DNA of 64,000 bases, taken from assembly GCF_035593305.1 (NCBI RefSeq), contig NZ_CP141615.1, positions 2,077,722 through 2,141,721 on the forward strand, read 5' to 3'. Positions 34,912 through 44,119 of the stretch are shown here, one piece after another. The notes under the pieces were generated by a model, which saw only the letters and a program-made list of their open reading frames with translations, searched no databases and was not told where the DNA came from. The first letter of the stretch is position 1. Every line of letters begins with the position of its first letter. The DNA comes from Limnochorda sp. L945t (GTDB lineage: Bacteria > Bacillota > Limnochordia > Limnochordales > Geochordaceae). The position numbers and the translations under genes are program-made.

Positions 34912-34950
34912 ATGGTGTCAACGGGTGCGAGGGTCGGGCGGGCGCGGTGA
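34912..34950 (+). CDS. Possible 12-residue leader peptide overlapping the kinase start
   Basis: ATG 34912 follows GTGAGG with a 5-base spacing and encodes MVSTGARVGRAR before TGA at 34948. That stop overlaps the GTG start of the kinase (GTGA at 34947), while the kinase itself has no close Shine-Dalgarno. The arrangement suggests translational coupling through a leader peptide, as with the GTGA overlaps elsewhere in the window. Short length makes chance likely. Confidence 0.3.
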   Translation: MVSTGARVGRAR

Positions 34951-36407
34951 AGGAGTCGGTCATCGAGTTTTTCCGGGCCAACGCGGTGGTGGTCCAGTTC
35001 GCCTATGGACTGGCCTTTTTCGCCATGGGCCTCGCCATCGCCCTGGAGTCGCGGCGCCCGAGCCAGCTGCGCATGGCACGCCACCTCCCGCTGCTCGGTA
35101 CCTTTGGCATCCTGCAGGCGCTGGCGAGTTGGGGGCAGGTCTTCATCCCCATCCAGCGCACGTATACGCCGCCGGCCATCGTGGTGACGCTGCAGGCTCT
35201 GCACGCGCTCCTGACGGCGCTGACCTTCTCGTTCTTGATGGCGTTCGGTGCGCGCCTTCTGGCCGATGGCGACCCGAAGCTCCGGCTGCTCGCCCATCTG
35301 CCCCTCTTGCTCACGACGGTCTGGGGCGTGAGCTTCTTCTTCTACCCCGTGGTCATGCTGCCCGCGAGCTACGAGCACTGGCTGGTCGTCAGCGAGGCGT
35401 GGTCCCGATACATCCTGGCCTTCCCCGGGGCGGTGCTGGTGGCTGTTGCGCTGGCCCGCCAGTTCGACGAGCTGCGGGTAGCGGGCATGGGGCATCTGGT
35501 GCGGCGGCTGCAGTGGGCCATCGTCTCGTTCGGCGCTTACGCCGTGGCGGCCGGCCTGATCGTGCCCAACGCCGGGTTTTTCCCGTCTAACCGGCTCAAC
35601 TCCGAGCAGTTCTTGCAGGTGACCGGCCTTCCGGTGGAGGGCGTTCGGGCGCTGACCGGGCTCGGTATGGCGTATTTCATGATCCGGGTCATGGAGATGT
35701 TCGACATCGAGGCGGCCCAGCGGCTGGAGGAAGTGCGGAGGATGCGGGCGATTCTCGCCGAGCGGGACCGGATCGCCCGGGAGCTGCACGACGGCGTCAT
35801 TCAGTCCTTGTACGCATTGGGCCTGGGCATGCAAAACGCGCGGTACGCCATGGAGTCGACCCCCGAGGCGAGCCGGCGCTTGCTCGACGAGCTGCTCGCC
35901 CGGGTCAACGGCATCATCCAGGACGTCCGGGGGTACATCATGGACCTGCGCCTGCCGGGCGAGACCGCCCTCACTCTCGCCCAAAAGCTGAGCGCGGTCG
36001 CCGGCGAGGCCTCCCGGGTCTATCACCTGCCGGTACACCTGGAGATAGGATCCATTGACGAGAAGGCGTTGCCGCCCGCGGTCGCCAATGAACTCTCCCA
36101 GGTGGTGAAGGAGGCCGTCAGCAACGCCGCCCGCCACGGGCAGCCCCGCCAGGTGCGCGTCGGCGTGCACGAGTCGGAGGGCGAGCTCGTGCTGTACGTG
36201 CAGGACGACGGGCGTGGGTTCGACCCCGGGCAGGCCGGCGATCGCCAGGGATGGGGCCTGGTCAACATGCGCCGGCGGGCGGAGCTCCTGGGGGGCGAGT
36301 TCGACATCGACAGCCGCCCGGGAGAGGGCACGACCGTGATGGTACGTATTCCCTTACGGGCGCCGTCGGAGCGAGCCCCCGTGGAGGGGCAACGGATCAG
36401 CGCATGA
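34947..36407 (+). CDS. 7TM sensor histidine kinase, NarL/LiaS-type (HisKA_3)
   Basis: 486 residues. Seven hydrophobic segments lie between residues about 12 and 255 (for example FAYGLAFFAMGLAIALES and ALTGLGMAYFMIRVMEMF), forming a membrane sensor with no large external domain. The dimerisation helix has ERDRIARELHDGVIQSLYAL with phospho-accepting H281, and the ATP-binding domain has VVKEAVSNAARHGQP (N box), DDGRGFDP (G1) and QGWGLVNMRRRAELLGG (G2). The ligand is unknown; a 7TM bundle suggests a membrane-soluble or small diffusible signal. It is followed 27 bases later by its likely partner regulator. The start is GTG 34947. Confidence 0.92.
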   Translation: MKESVIEFFRANAVVVQFAYGLAFFAMGLAIALESRRPSQLRMARHLPLLGTFGILQALASWGQVFIPIQRTYTPPAIVVTLQALHALLTALTFSFLMAFGARLLADGDPKLRLLAHLPLLLTTVWGVSFFFYPVVMLPASYEHWLVVSEAWSRYILAFPGAVLVAVALARQFDELRVAGMGHLVRRLQWAIVSFGAYAVAAGLIVPNAGFFPSNRLNSEQFLQVTGLPVEGVRALTGLGMAYFMIRVMEMFDIEAAQRLEEVRRMRAILAERDRIARELHDGVIQSLYALGLGMQNARYAMESTPEASRRLLDELLARVNGIIQDVRGYIMDLRLPGETALTLAQKLSAVAGEASRVYHLPVHLEIGSIDEKALPPAVANELSQVVKEAVSNAARHGQPRQVRVGVHESEGELVLYVQDDGRGFDPGQAGDRQGWGLVNMRRRAELLGGEFDIDSRPGEGTTVMVRIPLRAPSERAPVEGQRISA

Positions 36408-36434
36408 AAGCGGACGACGAGGTGAGAAGCCGCC

Positions 36435-37148
36435 ATGGTTGACGGTGCGTCTGGCCGTCCACAGCAGGCCGGCAGGCAGGTGCGCATCCTGGTGGCCGAC
36501 GACCACGAGGTCGTACGGATCGGGCTCCGGTCGCTGCTGGAGCGGATCCCGGAGTTCGCCGTGGTGGGAGAGGCCGATACCGGCAGCCGGGCGGTGGAGC
36601 TGACCGACTCTCTCCAGCCCGACGTCGTCGTCATGGACATCCGCATGCCGGAGCTCAACGGGGTCGAGGCTTGCCGGCGCATCAAGGAGCGCCATCCCGG
36701 GGTCAAAGTCATCATGCTCACCTCGTACCCCGACGACGAGGCCGTCTTCGGGGCGGTCATGGCCGGGGCCAGCGGTTACGTCCTCAAAGAGGTCAACTCG
36801 ATGGACCTGGTGGACGCCATCCGCACCGTGGCGCGCGGCGAGTCGCTGCTCGACCCGTCGGTGACGGGCAAGCTCCTCGACCGGGTCCGCAACATGACCG
36901 CCGAGGAGGCCCAGCCGCACGAGAAGCTCAACCCTCAGGAGCGCCGCATCCTGGCGCTCATCGCCGAGGGCAAGACCAACCGGGAGATCGCCGAAACCTT
37001 GTACTTGAGCGAAAAGACGGTTCGCAACTACGTCTCCATGATCCTGAGCAAGCTCGGACTGGCCAACCGGGCCGAGGCGGCCGCGTACGCCGTCCGGCAA
37101 AACATGGTGCGGGATGTCAAACCCGACGGGCACATGAACGGCGCGTAG
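36435..37148 (+). CDS. NarL/DevR-type response regulator
   Basis: 237 residues: receiver domain with acidic pocket ADDHEVV and phospho-acceptor D68 in [13 protein letters not shown], then Lys in YVLKEVNS, then a LuxR-type helix-turn-helix [20 protein letters not shown] followed by [20 protein letters not shown]. The DNA-binding part is close to DevR/DosR (EKTVRNYVS). It is partner of the 7TM kinase by position and family. About 17 extra residues precede the first strand. The target genes are unknown; the following membrane protein and the peptide transporter are candidates. Confidence 0.94.
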
Positions 37149-37193: not shown

Positions 37194-37922
37194 ATGAACC
37201 CGGTGACCCACACGCTGTCCGTGAGCGTGGCGGCCGCGGCCTTTGCCGTGAGCACGGCGTTTGCGGCCATGGTGCTGCGCCGCTTCGGCCGCAGGCCGCG
37301 CTCTTTGCACCTGTTGCTCTGGGGTATCGGCCTGCTCCTGTACGCCATCGGCGCGGCCGCGCAGGTGCACAGAGGACTCTACGGTTTCAGCGAGGCAGGC
37401 TTCCGGCTCTGGTACCTGACGGGAGCGGTCATGGTGGCCGCCTACCTGGGCCAGGGTACGGCTTACCTCTTGCTGCCCCGGCGCGTCGCGCACCTCTTGA
37501 TGGCGCTCCTGGCCGTGGGTACTTCGTATGCAGCATTCAAAGTGGCGGGGGCGCAGCTCGACCCGGCACGGGCCGCAGGGGCCGAACTCTCCGCGGCCGT
37601 CATCGTCTCGCCGGGCGTCCGGGTGCTGACTCCGTTTTTCAACGTCTACGGCACCCTGTTGCTGGTGGGCGGAGCCCTCTGGTCGGCGTGGGCCTTTCGC
37701 CGGCGGCGTACCCACTACGACCGGATGATCGGCAACGTCCTCATCGCCCTCGGGGGCCTGGCGCCTGCCATCGGGGGGACGCTCAACCGGTTCGGCCTGC
37801 CGGGCCTGTACGTGGGCGAACTGGTCGGCGCCGTCGTGATGTACCTGGGGTTCTTGAAGGCGACTTCCCCCGATCCCGTCCGGTCGGCCCGTCCTGCCCC
37901 CCACCCTGCGCCGGGCGCCTGA
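37194..37922 (+). CDS. Seven-helix membrane protein of unknown function
   Basis: 242 residues with seven hydrophobic stretches, for example VSVAAAAFAVSTAFAAMVLR and HLLLWGIGLLLYAIGAAAQ, ending in a Pro/Ala tail. No enzyme motif is seen. The helix layout and N-out orientation resemble the sensor part of the upstream kinase (a buried GxxxY/W pattern and short loops), so it may sense the same signal or be a paralogue of that sensor module. It lies 46 bases after the response regulator on the same strand and is probably in the same operon. Confidence 0.75.
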   Translation: MNPVTHTLSVSVAAAAFAVSTAFAAMVLRRFGRRPRSLHLLLWGIGLLLYAIGAAAQVHRGLYGFSEAGFRLWYLTGAVMVAAYLGQGTAYLLLPRRVAHLLMALLAVGTSYAAFKVAGAQLDPARAAGAELSAAVIVSPGVRVLTPFFNVYGTLLLVGGALWSAWAFRRRRTHYDRMIGNVLIALGGLAPAIGGTLNRFGLPGLYVGELVGAVVMYLGFLKATSPDPVRSARPAPHPAPGA

Positions 37923-38253
37923 CGCTCGCGGGTTCCCGGGAGTCTCCCAGAAAGTTCCTCCAGGCGCCGGCTCCCTCCGGAGGTGACACCCGCAGGGACG
38001 CGGCCGCCCTGGACCGGGCCTGCAGGGCTTTACGCGCGTCCAGACAGGGAATGCGGCGCGGCAGGAGTTGACACCATGCTGCCGAACCGAACCCCCCAAG
38101 GGATATCGTTCGGAGAGGGCGCGAGCCAATAAGGGGGGAGCGTGGAGGGAGCTGGTAGGCCCCCCCTCCGTACAGCGGGGGGGGCGGGTGTTCGTGTTCC
38201 GCGCGCGAAACGAGGAGAGCTCGGCCTCGAGCTCGGGAAGGGAGTGCAGCCTT
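37923..38253 (+). other. Leader region of the peptide transporter operon
   Basis: This 331-base stretch holds no convincing gene. It has an all-G:C hairpin with 8-base arms GCCCCCCC (38159-38166) and GGGGGGGC (38178-38185), and a perfect TTGACA at 38068-38073 that has no matching -10 box 16-18 bases downstream. A strong Shine-Dalgarno AAGGGAG lies at 38238-38244 before the TTG start of the binding protein. A long untranslated leader or an RNA regulator is possible; I recognise no known riboswitch motif. Confidence 0.45.
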
Positions 38254-39942
38254 TTGCGGCATACGTGGCGACAGGTGGCGTTCGTGGCGGCGGTGGCGAT
38301 GGCGCTGGCGGGGGCCCTGGGCGGCGTGGCGCTGGCGGCCAAACCCTTACCGCCCATCGTGATGTTGAGCGACACGGGCGACGTGGTGCGGACGATGAAC
38401 CAGGCCATCCAGGAGATGGTTCGCAAGAACCTGGGCCTGGAGATCCAGATCGAGTACATGGACTTCAAGACCCGCCTCGAGCGGATGCGCAACAGCAACT
38501 TCTCCGTCGTCTTCGCCGGGTGGGGGCCCGACTACGACGATCCCATGACCTTCCTCGACCTGTGGGTCACGGATAGCGCCTTCAACGACGGCAAGTGGAG
38601 CAACCAGCGCTACGACGAGCTCCTGGCGGCCGCGAAGAACACCACCGACCAGGAAAAGCGCATGCAGTACTTCGTCGAGGCGGAGAAGATCCTGGCGCAG
38701 GAGGCTCCCATCGCTCCCGTTTACTGGCGATCCCGCCTCTCGCTCTACAAGCCGTGGGTGAAGGGGATCATCCGGCGGCCGGTGGGGGCCGAGGCCGAGT
38801 ACAAGTGGGCCTACACCCAGGGCCGGCCGGGCGGCGACTCGCCGATGTACCTCAACCTCAACCTGGGCGAGGAGCCTCCCGATCTGGATCCGGCGACGTC
38901 CACCGACACCGTCTCCTTCCTCATCCTCAACGCCACCCTCGACGGCCTCGTGCGCAAGGATGCCCAGGGCCAGATCCGCCCGGGTAGCGGGTTGGCCGAG
39001 AGCTGGACGGTCTCCCCGGACCAGAAGGTGTACACCTTCAAGCTCCGCAAGGCCACCTGGGACGACGGCACGCCCATCACCGCCGACGACTTCGTCTACC
39101 AGTGGCGGCGCGTGATCGACCCGCGGACGGCCTCCCAGTACCAGTTCATGATGGAGCTGGCCGGCATCGCCAACGGCTCCAAGATCGCCAAGATGGACGC
39201 GAAGGACGGGGAGGCCATCGACAAGGCCCTGGAGACCTTTGGCGTGAAGGCGCTGGACGAGCGGACGCTGCAGGTCACCCTGGAGAAACCCAACCCGCTT
39301 TTCCTCGAGCTGACCACGTTCATCAGCTTCCTGCCGGCGCCCAAGCACCTGGTCGAAAAGTACGGCGACAAGTATGCCGCTGAGGCCAGCACCATCGGGG
39401 CATCCGGGCCCTTCCGGATCGCCGAGTGGAAGCACCAGTACGAGCTGGTCCTGGAGAAAAACCCGAAGTACTGGGACGCCAAGAACGTGAAGCTCCAGAA
39501 GATCCACTTCGACATGATCACGGACGCGGGCACGGCCCTGCAGATGTACGAGCAGGGCAAGCTCGATATCGCCGGCGTCGCCAGCCGCTACGTCGACGTG
39601 TACCGCAATCACCCCGACCTGCAGCCGCCGTGGCCCGACGGCTCCACCTTCTACTGGGAGTTCAACACCCTCGATCCGGTGCTGAAGAACGCCAAGGTGC
39701 GCCGGGCCATCGCGCTGGCCATCGACCGCAAGGCGTTCGCCGACCGGGTGCTGCGCAACGGATCGTATCCGGCCACGTCGCTCACGCCTCCGGTCATCAC
39801 CGACCCGGCCAAGGGCGGGATCTTCCAAAAGCGGGTCGGCGAGCTCTTCCCCGCCACGCCCGACGTGAAGCTGGCCCGCCAGCTGCTGCGGGAAGGCCTC
39901 ACCGAGCTCGGCTACGAGGTCCCGGAGGTGGCCCGCCAGTAG
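38254..39942 (+). CDS. Circularly permuted OppA-type peptide-binding protein
   Basis: 562 residues. The TTG at 38254 has AAGGGAG nine bases ahead and yields a Sec signal peptide (RHTWRQVAFVAAVAMALAGA, then ALAAK). Residues about 30-189 read LPPIVMLSDTGD, AIQEMVRKNLGLEIQIE, AGWGPDYDDPMTFLDL, KWSNQRYDELLAAA, AEKILAQEAPIAPVY and KPWVKG, ending EYKWAYTQ. These are the blocks that normally form the C-terminal third of OppA. After a linker GRPGGDSP, residues about 198-562 read MYLNLNLGEEPPDLDPATST, ESWTVSPDQKVYTFKLRKAT, TADDFVYQWRRVIDP, ASGPFRIAEW, KVRRAIALAIDRKAFADRVL and LLREGLTELGYEVPE, normally the N-terminal two thirds. Both parts are complete and in one frame, so total content matches a normal OppA. 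No lipobox Cys. Followed by oppB/C/D/F-like genes. Confidence 0.88.
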   Translation: MRHTWRQVAFVAAVAMALAGALGGVALAAKPLPPIVMLSDTGDVVRTMNQAIQEMVRKNLGLEIQIEYMDFKTRLERMRNSNFSVVFAGWGPDYDDPMTFLDLWVTDSAFNDGKWSNQRYDELLAAAKNTTDQEKRMQYFVEAEKILAQEAPIAPVYWRSRLSLYKPWVKGIIRRPVGAEAEYKWAYTQGRPGGDSPMYLNLNLGEEPPDLDPATSTDTVSFLILNATLDGLVRKDAQGQIRPGSGLAESWTVSPDQKVYTFKLRKATWDDGTPITADDFVYQWRRVIDPRTASQYQFMMELAGIANGSKIAKMDAKDGEAIDKALETFGVKALDERTLQVTLEKPNPLFLELTTFISFLPAPKHLVEKYGDKYAAEASTIGASGPFRIAEWKHQYELVLEKNPKYWDAKNVKLQKIHFDMITDAGTALQMYEQGKLDIAGVASRYVDVYRNHPDLQPPWPDGSTFYWEFNTLDPVLKNAKVRRAIALAIDRKAFADRVLRNGSYPATSLTPPVITDPAKGGIFQKRVGELFPATPDVKLARQLLREGLTELGYEVPEVARQ

Positions 39943-39991
39943 CGCTGCCGGATGCATTCCAAAAGCATCTGGCACGATGGCAAGATCGCCA

Positions 39992-40024
39992 GGAGGTGGA
40001 GACCCCGGCCGGGCCTCCACCTCC
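39992..40024 (+). other. Intercistronic hairpin after the binding-protein gene
   Basis: Perfect 10-base arms GGAGGTGGAG (39992-40001) and CTCCACCTCC (40015-40024), with a G+C-rich inner loop and no T-run, in the 134-base gap between the peptide-binding gene and the first permease gene. Such hairpins commonly block 3' exonucleases so that the binding protein is made in excess over the membrane subunits. Confidence 0.7.
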
Positions 40025-40076
40025 CCCCGGCTCTCCGTGCCGGGTGGATGGCCGGTACGCCAGGAGGTAAAGGGCA

Positions 40077-41003
40077 TTGGTCCGTTACATCGCGAGGCGC
40101 ATCGCTCTGGGCGTGCTCACGCTGTGGGTCATCGCCACGCTCACCTTCGTCCTGATGCACGCCATCCCCGGGGATCCTTTCGCCAGCGAGAAGCTCACGC
40201 CGCAGATCCACCAGCTCATGCTGGTCAAGTACGGGATGGATCGGCCCCTCATCCAGCAGTACTTCACATACCTCGGCAACCTCGTGCGCGGCGACCTGGG
40301 GTACTCGATGCGGCAGATGAACCGCACCGTCAACGACATGATCCGGGAGGGCTTCCCGGTCTCGGCCCATCTGGGGCTGCAGGCGATCGCCGTCGGGGTG
40401 ACCTTCGGGCTGGTGCTCGGCGTGATCGCCGCCGTCAACCACAACCGGTGGCCCGACTACGTCGTGATCCTCCTCGCCCTGCTCTTCGTCTCCATCCCCG
40501 GCTTCGTGGTCGGTGCGCTCATGCAGTACGTCTTCGGCGTCAGGCTGGGGTGGCTGCCGGTGGCCCGCTGGGAGGGCTTCGTCTACACGATCATGCCGAC
40601 GCTGGCCCTGGGCCTTTCGATGATGGCCGGCCAGGCGCGCTTCATGCGAAGCAGCATGCTGGAGGTCCTGGATCAGGATTACGTCCGCACCGCCGAGTCC
40701 AAGGGCCTCTCCCGGCGAGAGGTGCTCTGGCGGCACACCATTCGCAACGCCATCTTACCCATCGTGACCATCATGGGGCCGCTCGTCGCAGGGGTGGTGA
40801 CCGGCTCGTTCATCATCGAGAGCATGTTCGGCATCCCCGGGCTCGGCAAGTATTACGTGCAGAGCATCTATAACCGGGACTACCCGCTGATCATGGGGAC
40901 CACCATGTTTTACGCGGTGTTGCTCGTCGCCATGATGCTCCTGGTCGACCTGGCGTATACCCTGGTAGACCCGAGGATCCGGCTGGGGAAGGCCTCCGAC
41001 TGA
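40077..41003 (+). CDS. oppB: Oligopeptide ABC transporter permease, OppB type
   Basis: 308 residues, six membrane helices. MVRYIARRIALGVLTLWVIA is the typical OppB/DppB N-terminus, followed by GDPFASEKLTP, GDLGYSMRQ and, near the end, the EAA-type loop RTAESKGLSRREVLWRHTIR NA region and GSFIIESMFGIPGLGKYY. TTG 40077 is preceded by AGGAGG. It is the first membrane subunit, downstream of the permuted binding protein, and has all features of a functional transporter subunit. Confidence 0.95.
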   Translation: MVRYIARRIALGVLTLWVIATLTFVLMHAIPGDPFASEKLTPQIHQLMLVKYGMDRPLIQQYFTYLGNLVRGDLGYSMRQMNRTVNDMIREGFPVSAHLGLQAIAVGVTFGLVLGVIAAVNHNRWPDYVVILLALLFVSIPGFVVGALMQYVFGVRLGWLPVARWEGFVYTIMPTLALGLSMMAGQARFMRSSMLEVLDQDYVRTAESKGLSRREVLWRHTIRNAILPIVTIMGPLVAGVVTGSFIIESMFGIPGLGKYYVQSIYNRDYPLIMGTTMFYAVLLVAMMLLVDLAYTLVDPRIRLGKASD

Positions 41004-41058: not shown

Positions 41059-41994
41059 GTGAACCAGGCCGTACGCGCGATAGACCCCCCCGCCGAGCTC
41101 TTCCGGCCGGCAGCCATCTCGGAGGAGGCTGCAGAGGCGCTCGACCGGCCGCCGCGAAGTTACTGGGCGGATGCATGGGCCCGCTTCCGCCAGAACCGGA
41201 TGGCCGTGGCCGGGCTCGTCGTGCTGGTCGTCATCGGCATCCTGGCCATCGTCGGGCCCTACCTGACCGGCTATGACTACCGGGAGACGAGCCTGCTCGA
41301 CACGGACCTGCCTCCCTCGCCCGAGCACTGGTTCGGCACCGACGAGCTCGGGCGGGACATCTTCACCCGGCTCTGGTTCGGGGCGCGTATCTCGCTGCTC
41401 ATCGGGCTCCTGGCGGCCGCCATCGACCTGGTCGCCGGGGTGACCATGGGCGGGATCGCCGGCTACTTCGGAGGCATGGTCGACGACGTCATCATGCGCA
41501 TCGTCGAGATCGTCTACTCCATCCCGTCGCTCCTCGTGATCATCCTTCTGCTCGTCGTGATAGGGCCGGGGCTCGGCTCCATCGTCGTCGCGCTGGGAGT
41601 CCTGGGATGGGTCGGGATGGCGCGCCTCGTGCGAGGCCAGGAGCTCCAGATCAAGCAGCAGGAGTACGTGCTGGCCGCCCAGGCCCTGGGGGTGCGTTCC
41701 TGGAAGATCATCGTGCGCCATCTGGTGCCCAACACCATGGGGGTCATCCTCGTCAACATCACGTTGACGGTGCCGGGCGCGATTTTCACCGAGGCTTTCC
41801 TTTCGTTCTTGGGGCTGGGCATCCAGGACCCCCTGGCGAGCTTGGGCTCCATGATCTCCTCGTCCTACCAGGTCTTGCGGGTTTATCCGCATGAGCTCCT
41901 CTTCCCGGCCCTGGTCTTGAGCCTGATCCTGCTCGGCTTCAACTTCCTGGGCGACGGGTTGCGCGACGCCCTGGACCCGAGGCAGCGTCATTGA
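41059..41994 (+). CDS. oppC: Oligopeptide ABC transporter permease, OppC type
   Basis: 311 residues. An N-terminal cytoplasmic segment (residues 1-45) leads into RFRQNRMAVAGLVVLVVIG, followed by the OppC signature HWFGTDELGRDIFTRLWFG ARIS, the ATPase-docking stretch RGQELQIKQQEYVLAAQALG, and TEAFLSFLGLGIQDPLASLG. GTG 41059 is the likely start (MNQAVRAIDPP). The downstream oppD begins one base after its stop. Confidence 0.95.
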   Translation: MNQAVRAIDPPAELFRPAAISEEAAEALDRPPRSYWADAWARFRQNRMAVAGLVVLVVIGILAIVGPYLTGYDYRETSLLDTDLPPSPEHWFGTDELGRDIFTRLWFGARISLLIGLLAAAIDLVAGVTMGGIAGYFGGMVDDVIMRIVEIVYSIPSLLVIILLLVVIGPGLGSIVVALGVLGWVGMARLVRGQELQIKQQEYVLAAQALGVRSWKIIVRHLVPNTMGVILVNITLTVPGAIFTEAFLSFLGLGIQDPLASLGSMISSSYQVLRVYPHELLFPALVLSLILLGFNFLGDGLRDALDPRQRH

Positions 41995-41995
41995 C

Positions 41996-43102
41996 ATGGT
42001 CGCTGCAGGTGGAAAAGGAGGCGGCCGCCCCAAGGTGGAGCCACTGTTGAGCATCGACAAGTTGCGGGTCAATTTCTACACCCACGCCGGCACCGTCCAC
42101 GCGGTCCGGGGCGCGTCCTTCGAGGTGCGCGAGGGCGAGACCCTGGCTCTCGTGGGCGAGTCGGGGTGCGGCAAGAGCGTGACGGCCCTTTCCATCATGC
42201 GGCTCGTCCCCCACCCGGGGCGCATCGACGGGGGCACCATCCGGTTCGCCGGCAAGGAGCTCACCGCTCTTTCCCTGCGCGAGATGGAGCGGGTACGGGG
42301 CGCGGAGATCGGGATGATCTTCCAGGATCCGATGACCTCCCTCAATCCCACCATGACCATCGGCCAGCAGATCGCCGAGCCTCTTCGCAAGCACAAGGGC
42401 ATGGGGCCGAAGGAGGCGCTGGACCGGGCGGCCGAGATCCTGGCCATGGTGGGCATCCCCAACCCGCGGACGCGCCTCGCCCAGTTCCCTCACGAGATGA
42501 GCGGCGGCATGCGCCAGCGGGTGATGATCGCCATGGCCATCGCCTGCGAGCCGCACCTGCTCATCGCCGACGAGCCCACCACCTCCCTCGACGTCACCAT
42601 CCAGGCCCAGATCCTGGAGCTCATGAAGGGCCTGCAGGAGAAGTTGGGTATGGCCATCCTGCTCATTACGCACGATCTGGGGGTGGTGGCACGCCTCGCC
42701 GACCGGGTCGTGGTCATGTACGCCGGCCAGGTCGTGGAACAGGCGGGCGTCGATGAGCTCTATTACCATACCCTCCATCCCTACACCCGGGCGCTGATGC
42801 GATCGGTGCCCAACCCGGAGGCCGGAGTCCGGCAGGAGCTGGAGTCCATCGCCGGCTCTCCCCCCGACCTGTACCAGGAGCCGCCCGGATGCCCGTTCGC
42901 TCCGCGCTGCAGCCGGGTGCTCGAGGTGTGCCGGTCCTACCCGCCGCCGTTTTTCGAGGCGGGCCCGGAGCACGTCTCGGCCTGCTGGCTCCTGGATCCC
43001 AGGGCCGGGCGATGGGGCAAGGACTTCCTTGCCACGTCCCCCAGGCCCTACGCCGAGGCCGCCGCCTCCCCCAAAACCCCGGATCAAGAGGTCGAAGCGT
43101 AG
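41996..43102 (+). CDS. oppD: Oligopeptide ABC transporter ATPase, OppD type
   Basis: 368 residues from ATG 41996. Walker A is [14 protein letters not shown]-loop [16 protein letters not shown], signature [15 protein letters not shown], Walker [19 protein letters not shown] and switch His [11 protein letters not shown]. The C-terminal OppD/F extension has [12 protein letters not shown] plus further cysteines (EVC, SACW), which can hold an iron-sulphur cluster. AAAAGGAGG lies inside the first codons, so the real start may be GTG 42035 ([15 protein letters not shown]). Confidence 0.95.
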
Positions 43103-44119
43103 ATGTCAGCCATGCCGGTCCGAGACGTACCGCACGAGGCGCCCCGCGAGGTTGCGGGCGGCGAGGCCGCCCCGGTACTGCTCGAGGTGCGGGGGCTCAA
43201 GAAGTACTTCACGATCCGCCGTGGGCTGCAGGTGCGGGCCGTCGACGGGATTGACTTCCACATCCGCAAAGGCGAGATTTTCGCGCTCGTAGGAGAGAGC
43301 GGCTCGGGCAAGACCACCGTCGGGCGGGTCGTCATCGGCCTGTACCACCCGACGGCGGGCCAGGTGATGTTCGACGGCAAGGACGTCCACCGGCTATCGG
43401 GCGCCGAGCTCTATCGCTTCAAGCGTCGGGCCCAGATCATCTTCCAGGACCCGTACGCCTCCCTGGATCCCCGCATGACCGTGGCGGAGATCATCGGCGA
43501 AGCCCTGGACAGCCACGGGCTCGCCCACGGCCGGGAACGCCTGCACCGGATTGCCGAGCTGTTGCGGGTGGTCGGGCTCAACCCCGAACACGCCAGCCGC
43601 TACCCTCACGAGTTCAGCGGAGGGCAGCGCCAGCGCATCGGGATCGCACGGGCGCTCGCCGTCGACCCGGAGTTCCTGGTGGCCGACGAGCCCATCTCGG
43701 CGCTGGACGTCTCCATCCAGGCCCAGATCGTCAATTTGCTGGCGCGTCTTCAGGCGGAGCGCGGGCTCACGTACCTGTTCATCGCCCATGACCTCGCCAT
43801 GGTGCGCCACCTGAGCGACCGCATCGGCGTGATGTACCTCGGGCACCTGGTGGAGACGGGGCCGACGCGGGAGGTTTACCGCAAGCCCCTGCACCCGTAC
43901 ACCCAGGGGCTGATGTCGGCGGTGCCGATCCCCGATCCCCGCCGGGAGCGCCAGCGCCACCGGATCCTGATGGAGGGCGAGATCCCGAGCCCCATCAACC
44001 CGCCTTCGGGCTGCCCCTTCCGCACCCGCTGTCCTCGGGCGGAGGAGGTCTGCGCCCGGGTGCGCCCCGAGCTCAAGCCCGTCGAACCCGGCCACCAGGT
44101 GGCCTGCCATCTCTACTGA
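43103..44119 (+). CDS. oppF: Oligopeptide ABC transporter ATPase, OppF type
   Basis: 338 residues. Walker A VGESGSGKTTVGR, Q-loop IIFQDPYASLDPRMTV, signature FSGGQRQRIGIARAL, Walker B FLVADEPISALDVSIQAQ, switch His FIAHDLAMVRHLS; C-terminal PPSGCPFRTRCPRAEEVC is the OppF cysteine extension. ATG 43103 follows the oppD stop with no gap. It is last in the five-gene transporter operon. Confidence 0.96.
   Translation: MSAMPVRDVPHEAPREVAGGEAAPVLLEVRGLKKYFTIRRGLQVRAVDGIDFHIRKGEIFALVGESGSGKTTVGRVVIGLYHPTAGQVMFDGKDVHRLSGAELYRFKRRAQIIFQDPYASLDPRMTVAEIIGEALDSHGLAHGRERLHRIAELLRVVGLNPEHASRYPHEFSGGQRQRIGIARALAVDPEFLVADEPISALDVSIQAQIVNLLARLQAERGLTYLFIAHDLAMVRHLSDRIGVMYLGHLVETGPTREVYRKPLHPYTQGLMSAVPIPDPRRERQRHRILMEGEIPSPINPPSGCPFRTRCPRAEEVCARVRPELKPVEPGHQVACHLY

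Follow-up and report, generated by a model that had tools for sequence, protein, structure and literature searches.

The protein encoded at positions 38254-39942 (+ strand) of the window, the 64,000-nucleotide stretch of Limnochorda sp. L945t DNA that we analysed, is very probably (about 0.9) a naturally permuted, circularly rearranged substrate-binding protein (SBP) of cluster C, in the SBP_bac_5, OppA/DppE-like family, which would serve the neighbouring OppBCDF importer as its peptide receptor. The gene is a single open frame of 562 codons for amino acids with a TTG start and a TAG stop, and a Shine-Dalgarno-like AAGGGAG (38238-38244) lies 9 nt 5' of the start. In this OppA-type protein, the canonical C-terminal third (C-block, residues 32-187; 38347-38814) stands ahead of the canonical N-terminal two thirds (N-block, residues 198-555; 38845-39918). 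The N-terminus reads as a hydrophobic signal peptide of residues 1-29 (38254-38340), which ends in GGVALAA and has no lipobox cysteine.

The Pfam SBP_bac_5 profile (PF00496) matched the protein with an E-value of 1.8e-85 and 287.7 bits, against a curated cut-off of 32.4. The first part of the protein aligned with profile positions 291-366 (E 4e-13) and the second part with positions 4-279 (E 1e-71), which marks the protein as a permuted variant of the family and not a canonical member. Comparison with OppA/DppE chains of the PDB by phmmer revealed the same two blocks in reversed order. In particular, residues 201-555 matched 6npo chain positions 37-382 (i-E 4e-64) and residues 40-188 matched positions 392-543 (i-E 1e-25), and the pattern recurred against 5kzt, 8ay0, 8are and 1b05. 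Our own canonical profile, built from 34 canonical relatives and 493 positions long (h numbering), covered the protein as h338-492 and then h3-332, each block once and without repeat; the blocks are complementary, and none is duplicated or lost. The preliminary description had read this block order, its completeness and its coordinates from the letters of a single frame spanning the whole protein; phmmer and Pfam reproduced them far beyond chance, and the two off-diagonal blocks that it expected from a profile alignment did appear. A collinear alignment was excluded by three independent profiles (phmmer against the PDB, our own profile and Pfam). Two complementary blocks are swapped, the old termini are joined and the new termini lie inside the old chain, and natural circular permutation of an OppA-type protein is the reading that these alignments support. 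Two details of that description needed adjustment: the linker between the old termini is present but extends over about residues 188-197 (TQGRPGGDSP; 38815-38844) rather than GRPGGDSP, and the protein ends near the junction but not exactly at it, about 7 residues past the last aligned residue. This C-terminal end falls in a loop of variable length among canonical proteins.

The structure of the mature window protein was predicted by AlphaFold2 from an input of 41 type I proteins (those that share its cut, see below), with a pLDDT of 89.5 and a pTM of 0.88. Segments below a pLDDT of 50 (residues 178-186 and 190-196 of model P0001) were confined to the linker of the fused termini and its surroundings. 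The model of the type II protein L110 reached a pLDDT of 94.1 and a pTM of 0.88. Foldseek revealed OppA and DppE as the top matches of the type I model and NikA, DppA and AppA as those of the type II model. Foldseek aligns sequentially and covered only part of the chain for both types, for the window model about 380 columns with a TM-score of about 0.53-0.57 for most top matches; such partial coverage is expected for permutants. Asp93 of the GW-x-x-DY-x-x-P motif (38530-38532) aligned with Asp419 of Escherichia coli OppA in the 1b05 alignment, so that the relocated block carries a ligand residue. In OppA, Asp419 takes part in binding the peptide N-terminus; this position is conserved in the permuted protein, which may bind peptides.

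The same permuted order was found in the independently assembled MAG Limnochordaceae Bu05 (L021, 99% identity), in a genome of the same family (G001, 83%), in one of another family of the order (G010, 58%) and in dozens of other genomes. Two SBP genes or gene halves could in principle have been misjoined during assembly or binning, as this genome carries about a dozen canonical SBP_bac_5 loci and such repeats can confuse assemblers. However, the arrangement is identical in the independent MAG and in two other genera (83% and 58% identity), and about 45 distinct type I sequences are cut at the same place; this rules out a misassembly for practical purposes and leaves it a negligible probability. 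The source genome is one 3.31-Mb contig, and the L945T assembly is closed and combines Nanopore and Illumina data (PMC11456536); Bu05 and Carboxydochorda subterranea L945T (CP141615), a diderm thermophile, are members of one species (PMC11456536). The dN/dS of the window gene was 0.11 against Bu05, 0.22 against G001 and 0.27 against G010, and it was equal in the C-block and the N-block (against G001). The permuted gene is under purifying selection, and the single frame together with these ratios rules out two separate genes.

The window protein is no single oddity: it is one of several lineages sharing its cut, besides which a second cut type exists. The same genome contains a second permuted SBP_bac_5 gene (G000:C1:744215-745720; L103 8198-9895, - strand), 27% identical to the first and followed by oppB and oppC; its product aligns with the window protein across the junction. 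Relatives were searched with an alignment (A1) that spans the non-native C-to-N1 junction and should detect permutants cut anywhere between about h110 and h340. Within the class, permuted proteins gave full-length matches with E-values of 2e-52 or better, and canonical proteins gave half matches of 8e-35 or worse. Permuted SBPs were found as 32 genes in 26 of the 73 genomes of the class, in 48 of the 399 genomes of the phylum (three half matches set aside) and in 3 of the 301 genomes of Chloroflexota, the phylum of Dictyobacter; these tallies are minimum values, as scoring was limited to the top candidates of each genome. None was found in 349 genomes of Pseudomonadota, the phylum of Rhizobium, a weak negative result with at most seven candidates scored per genome and no positive control. 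All matches listed in a plasmid search were in two pieces, with no close permuted relative among them. Likewise, no solved permuted structure was recognisable among the PDB matches listed for type I families 1 and 2 and type II, whose displayed alignments and best stretches fit the canonical order in two blocks.

About 90 distinct permuted proteins displayed only two kinds of cut. Type I, the cut of the window protein, lies at about canonical position h333/h337; the proteins end at h330-335 and begin at h329-349, the consensus reads LaeaGy before the cut and pdgkleitlly after it, and 44 distinct members plus three from Chloroflexota were counted. Type II, also with 44 distinct members, is cut at about h198/h200 after the KNPxYW motif (consensus vleknpdYwda, then kavkldkief); these proteins end at h197-201 and begin at h187-201, except for three aligned from h229-256, at least two of which are truncated by a contig end. 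The order N2-C-N1 was read in L110, L111, L113, L114, L121-L126, L132-L139 and other type II permutants. When the indel peaks of 72 non-redundant canonical proteins were ranked by height, h339 came second and h197 seventh; both cuts thus coincide with canonical indel hot spots, which suggests that new ends arise in loops tolerant of change. Cuts at the other loose loops, h115, h167 and h309, were never seen among the approximately 90 permuted proteins. By the domain layout of OppA, the type I cut would fall in lobe 2 and that of type II in lobe 1.

To the re-ordered permuted sequences, canonical relatives were added for an IQ-TREE analysis (81 rows, 466 columns, LG+C20). On this tree, type I must have changed five separate times (bootstrap range 5-5), each time forced by well-supported branches; type II requires a single change and forms one monophyletic lineage. 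The type I lineages are F1 (the window protein, L075, L167 and L174), F2 (L006, L180, L182, L187 and L201), L207, L217 and F3 (11 rows). Two permutants from Chloroflexota nest in family 3, and phylum borders are therefore no marker of origins. One permutation may instead have happened once in the distant past and spread vertically and horizontally, with many reversions to the canonical order. One cut is common to all type I proteins, rooting cannot distinguish gain from loss, and AU tests retained both F1 with L217 as one clade (p 0.061) and F3 with type II as one clade, which fitted 13 units better. The same tests, however, rejected all type I proteins as one clade by 607.6 log units (p 3e-49), as well as clades of F1 with F2 (p 8e-6) and F2 with L207 (p 6e-5), and a reversion at the same point would be as hard as a permutation, so that at least five interconversions stand on the tree either way. 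We consider a single ancient origin unlikely. At least three type I lineages are firmly distinct by the pairwise tests, and the separateness of F3 from F1, F2 and L207, and of F1 from L207, rests on the tree. In view of the two retained clades, we put the type I origins at probably four or more; the type II lineage may share its junction with F3.

The trees of the two halves bear on how these proteins arose. Both halves of F1 were placed near OppA of the Bacillus/Lactobacillus type, and F2 likewise had its two halves next to the L221/L224 group; the canonical-order sisters of F2 are about 53% identical (L221). A domain shuffle, in which the C-block of one paralogue was fused to the N-block of another, would give the same block order without permutation. 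The best canonical relatives do differ between the halves of some sequences, such as L167 and L217, and the C-block is short and weakly resolved in trees. Against this, both halves of F1, and likewise of F2, fall in the same canonical groups, which argues against a fusion of unrelated paralogues; the complementary cut points would have to be a coincidence, and a fusion of two copies inside one tandem array is indistinguishable from a permutation. A chimera is thus very unlikely. The permutants probably originated from a tandem SBP array that was trimmed at both ends. Tandem duplication followed by trimming, proposed in the preliminary description, is plausible, but the duplicated intermediate (an N-C-N or C-N-C open reading frame) was not found among the fetched loci. 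A MAG of the Kiritimatiellales (L060 2867-6083) contains two canonical SBP genes in tandem that overlap by a few bases, and from this kind of array a permutant could arise. Additionally, two adjacent type II permuted SBP genes were observed beside one oppB operon in L170, L171 and L172.

We found a signal peptide ahead of the new N-terminus in nearly all complete permuted proteins, so its re-attachment, first described for the window protein, extends to the homologues. In 13 type I proteins, a lipobox-like cysteine, read by eye, closes the signal peptide. At most permuted loci with enough flanking sequence, the next gene encodes an OppB-type permease, followed by OppC, OppD and often OppF, a layout in which the permuted gene holds the position of the canonical SBP gene; in the exceptions L184 and L186, it follows oppF. 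The window operon has the order SBP-oppB-oppC-oppD-oppF and comprises, on the + strand, the permeases oppB (40077-41003; Pfam BPD_transp_1, 3.6e-41) and oppC (41059-41994; OppC_N and BPD_transp_1) and the ATPases oppD (41996-43102) and oppF (43103-44119), both with ABC_tran and oligo_HPY matches. The gap of about 140 nt between the SBP gene and oppB (39943-40076) folds better than 200 of 200 shuffles (z -3.45) and includes a stem-loop at 39947-39973 (GCCGGATGC ... GCATCTGGC). The hairpins of this gap may serve in processing or attenuation and thereby raise the expression of the SBP over that of the permeases. No match to a sigma-70 promoter was found upstream of the permuted gene. A 242-aa apparent membrane protein with no Pfam match is encoded at 37194-37922, between the permuted gene and the response regulator of a NarL/LuxR-type two-component pair (HisKA_3 kinase and response regulator; 34947-37148, same strand), which may regulate the opp operon.

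The permuted protein could also be redirected or a decaying relic, for example a sensor or scavenging protein that the adjacent transporter does not use. The two-component system upstream would suit such a role, and two homologous copies are interrupted by stop codons. The G001 orthologue (L104 7806-9491, - strand) carries a TGA in frame after APIAPIYW, at the codon that reads CGA in the window; this may be a nonsense mutation, a sequencing error or readthrough, the remaining operon is intact, and the gene may thus be dispensable in that strain. The type I permuted gene of G299 (L189 3681-5417) has an in-frame TAG inside the C-block. The purifying selection, the intact signal peptide and ligand Asp, and the constant placement by oppBCDF as the SBP gene adjoining oppB make this explanation quite unlikely. 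Most probably, the window protein is functional, is secreted and binds peptides for the adjacent OppBCDF, with a putative function in transport.

We propose that the ancestral termini, both presumably on lobe 1, were joined by the short flexible linker, and that the new termini would be found in a loop that tolerates indels, leads from the DPxxAxxLLxEAGY helix into the next strand and, judging by the OppA structure, presumably belongs to lobe 2. The protein would be exported by the signal peptide at its new N-terminus, fold as OppA, bind peptide between the lobes and dock on OppBC, with both termini now on lobe 2. With the peptide-binding residues and, according to the model, the fold retained, normal peptide binding and delivery to OppBC would be expected. 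The recurrence of one cut in several lineages would be explained by a loop that can accommodate free ends and by natural termini close enough together to be joined. We suggest, tentatively and with some doubt, that cluster C has a permutation hot spot at which at least four independent events produced the type I cut, and that this cut persisted because relocating the termini, and in lipoproteins the membrane anchor as well, from lobe 1 to lobe 2 usefully alters docking or opening dynamics.

Compared with canonical OppA/DppE (PF00496, cluster C; 6npo, 5kzt, 8ay0 and 1b05), the window protein shares all blocks, the ligand Asp, secretion and the oppBCDF neighbour, but it differs in the order of the blocks, in its termini within the loop at about h333/h337 and in the fusion of the old termini by a short linker. 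Cases of natural circular permutation are generally rare and tend to be deduced from distant structures. Among ABC-type binding proteins, TpMglB-2 (Tp0684) of Treponema pallidum is a circularly permuted cluster B glucose-binding protein, termed cluster Bc, which retains the bilobed fold and for which ligand binding has been shown (PMC4990184). It belongs to another SBP cluster (the type I sugar binders), its fold topology and cut are different, and few members of its family are described; the window protein stands outside this sugar-binding fold, its best relatives being cluster C OppA/DppE. The glycine betaine-binding proteins OpuAC and ProX are likewise ABC-transporter binding proteins related by circular permutation (CPSARST, PMC2395249). 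These small betaine/molybdate binders share less than 24% identity and were found from structures (PMC2395249), whereas the homology of the permuted OppA-type proteins is plain in sequence, with a canonical sister up to about 53% identical. We found no description of permuted OppA/DppA (cluster C) SBPs in the open-access literature, in agreement with the preliminary description; this absence is no proof, and the only literature match for DppA with circular permutation concerns alignment software.

Permutation of ABC binding proteins was thus already known from cluster B and the betaine binders, and the surprise here is its recurrence at fixed sites: it recurs at the same loop in one of the largest bacterial receptor families. 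In annotation, methods that depend on sequence order report permuted proteins as matches that are incomplete or split into two stretches. The design of permuted SBP biosensors can take the two natural cut sites as a direct guide. As canonical sisters reach about 53% identity, the effect of permutation on folding, export, ligand binding and docking is open to experiment, for which F2 and its canonical L221 sisters are the best pair.
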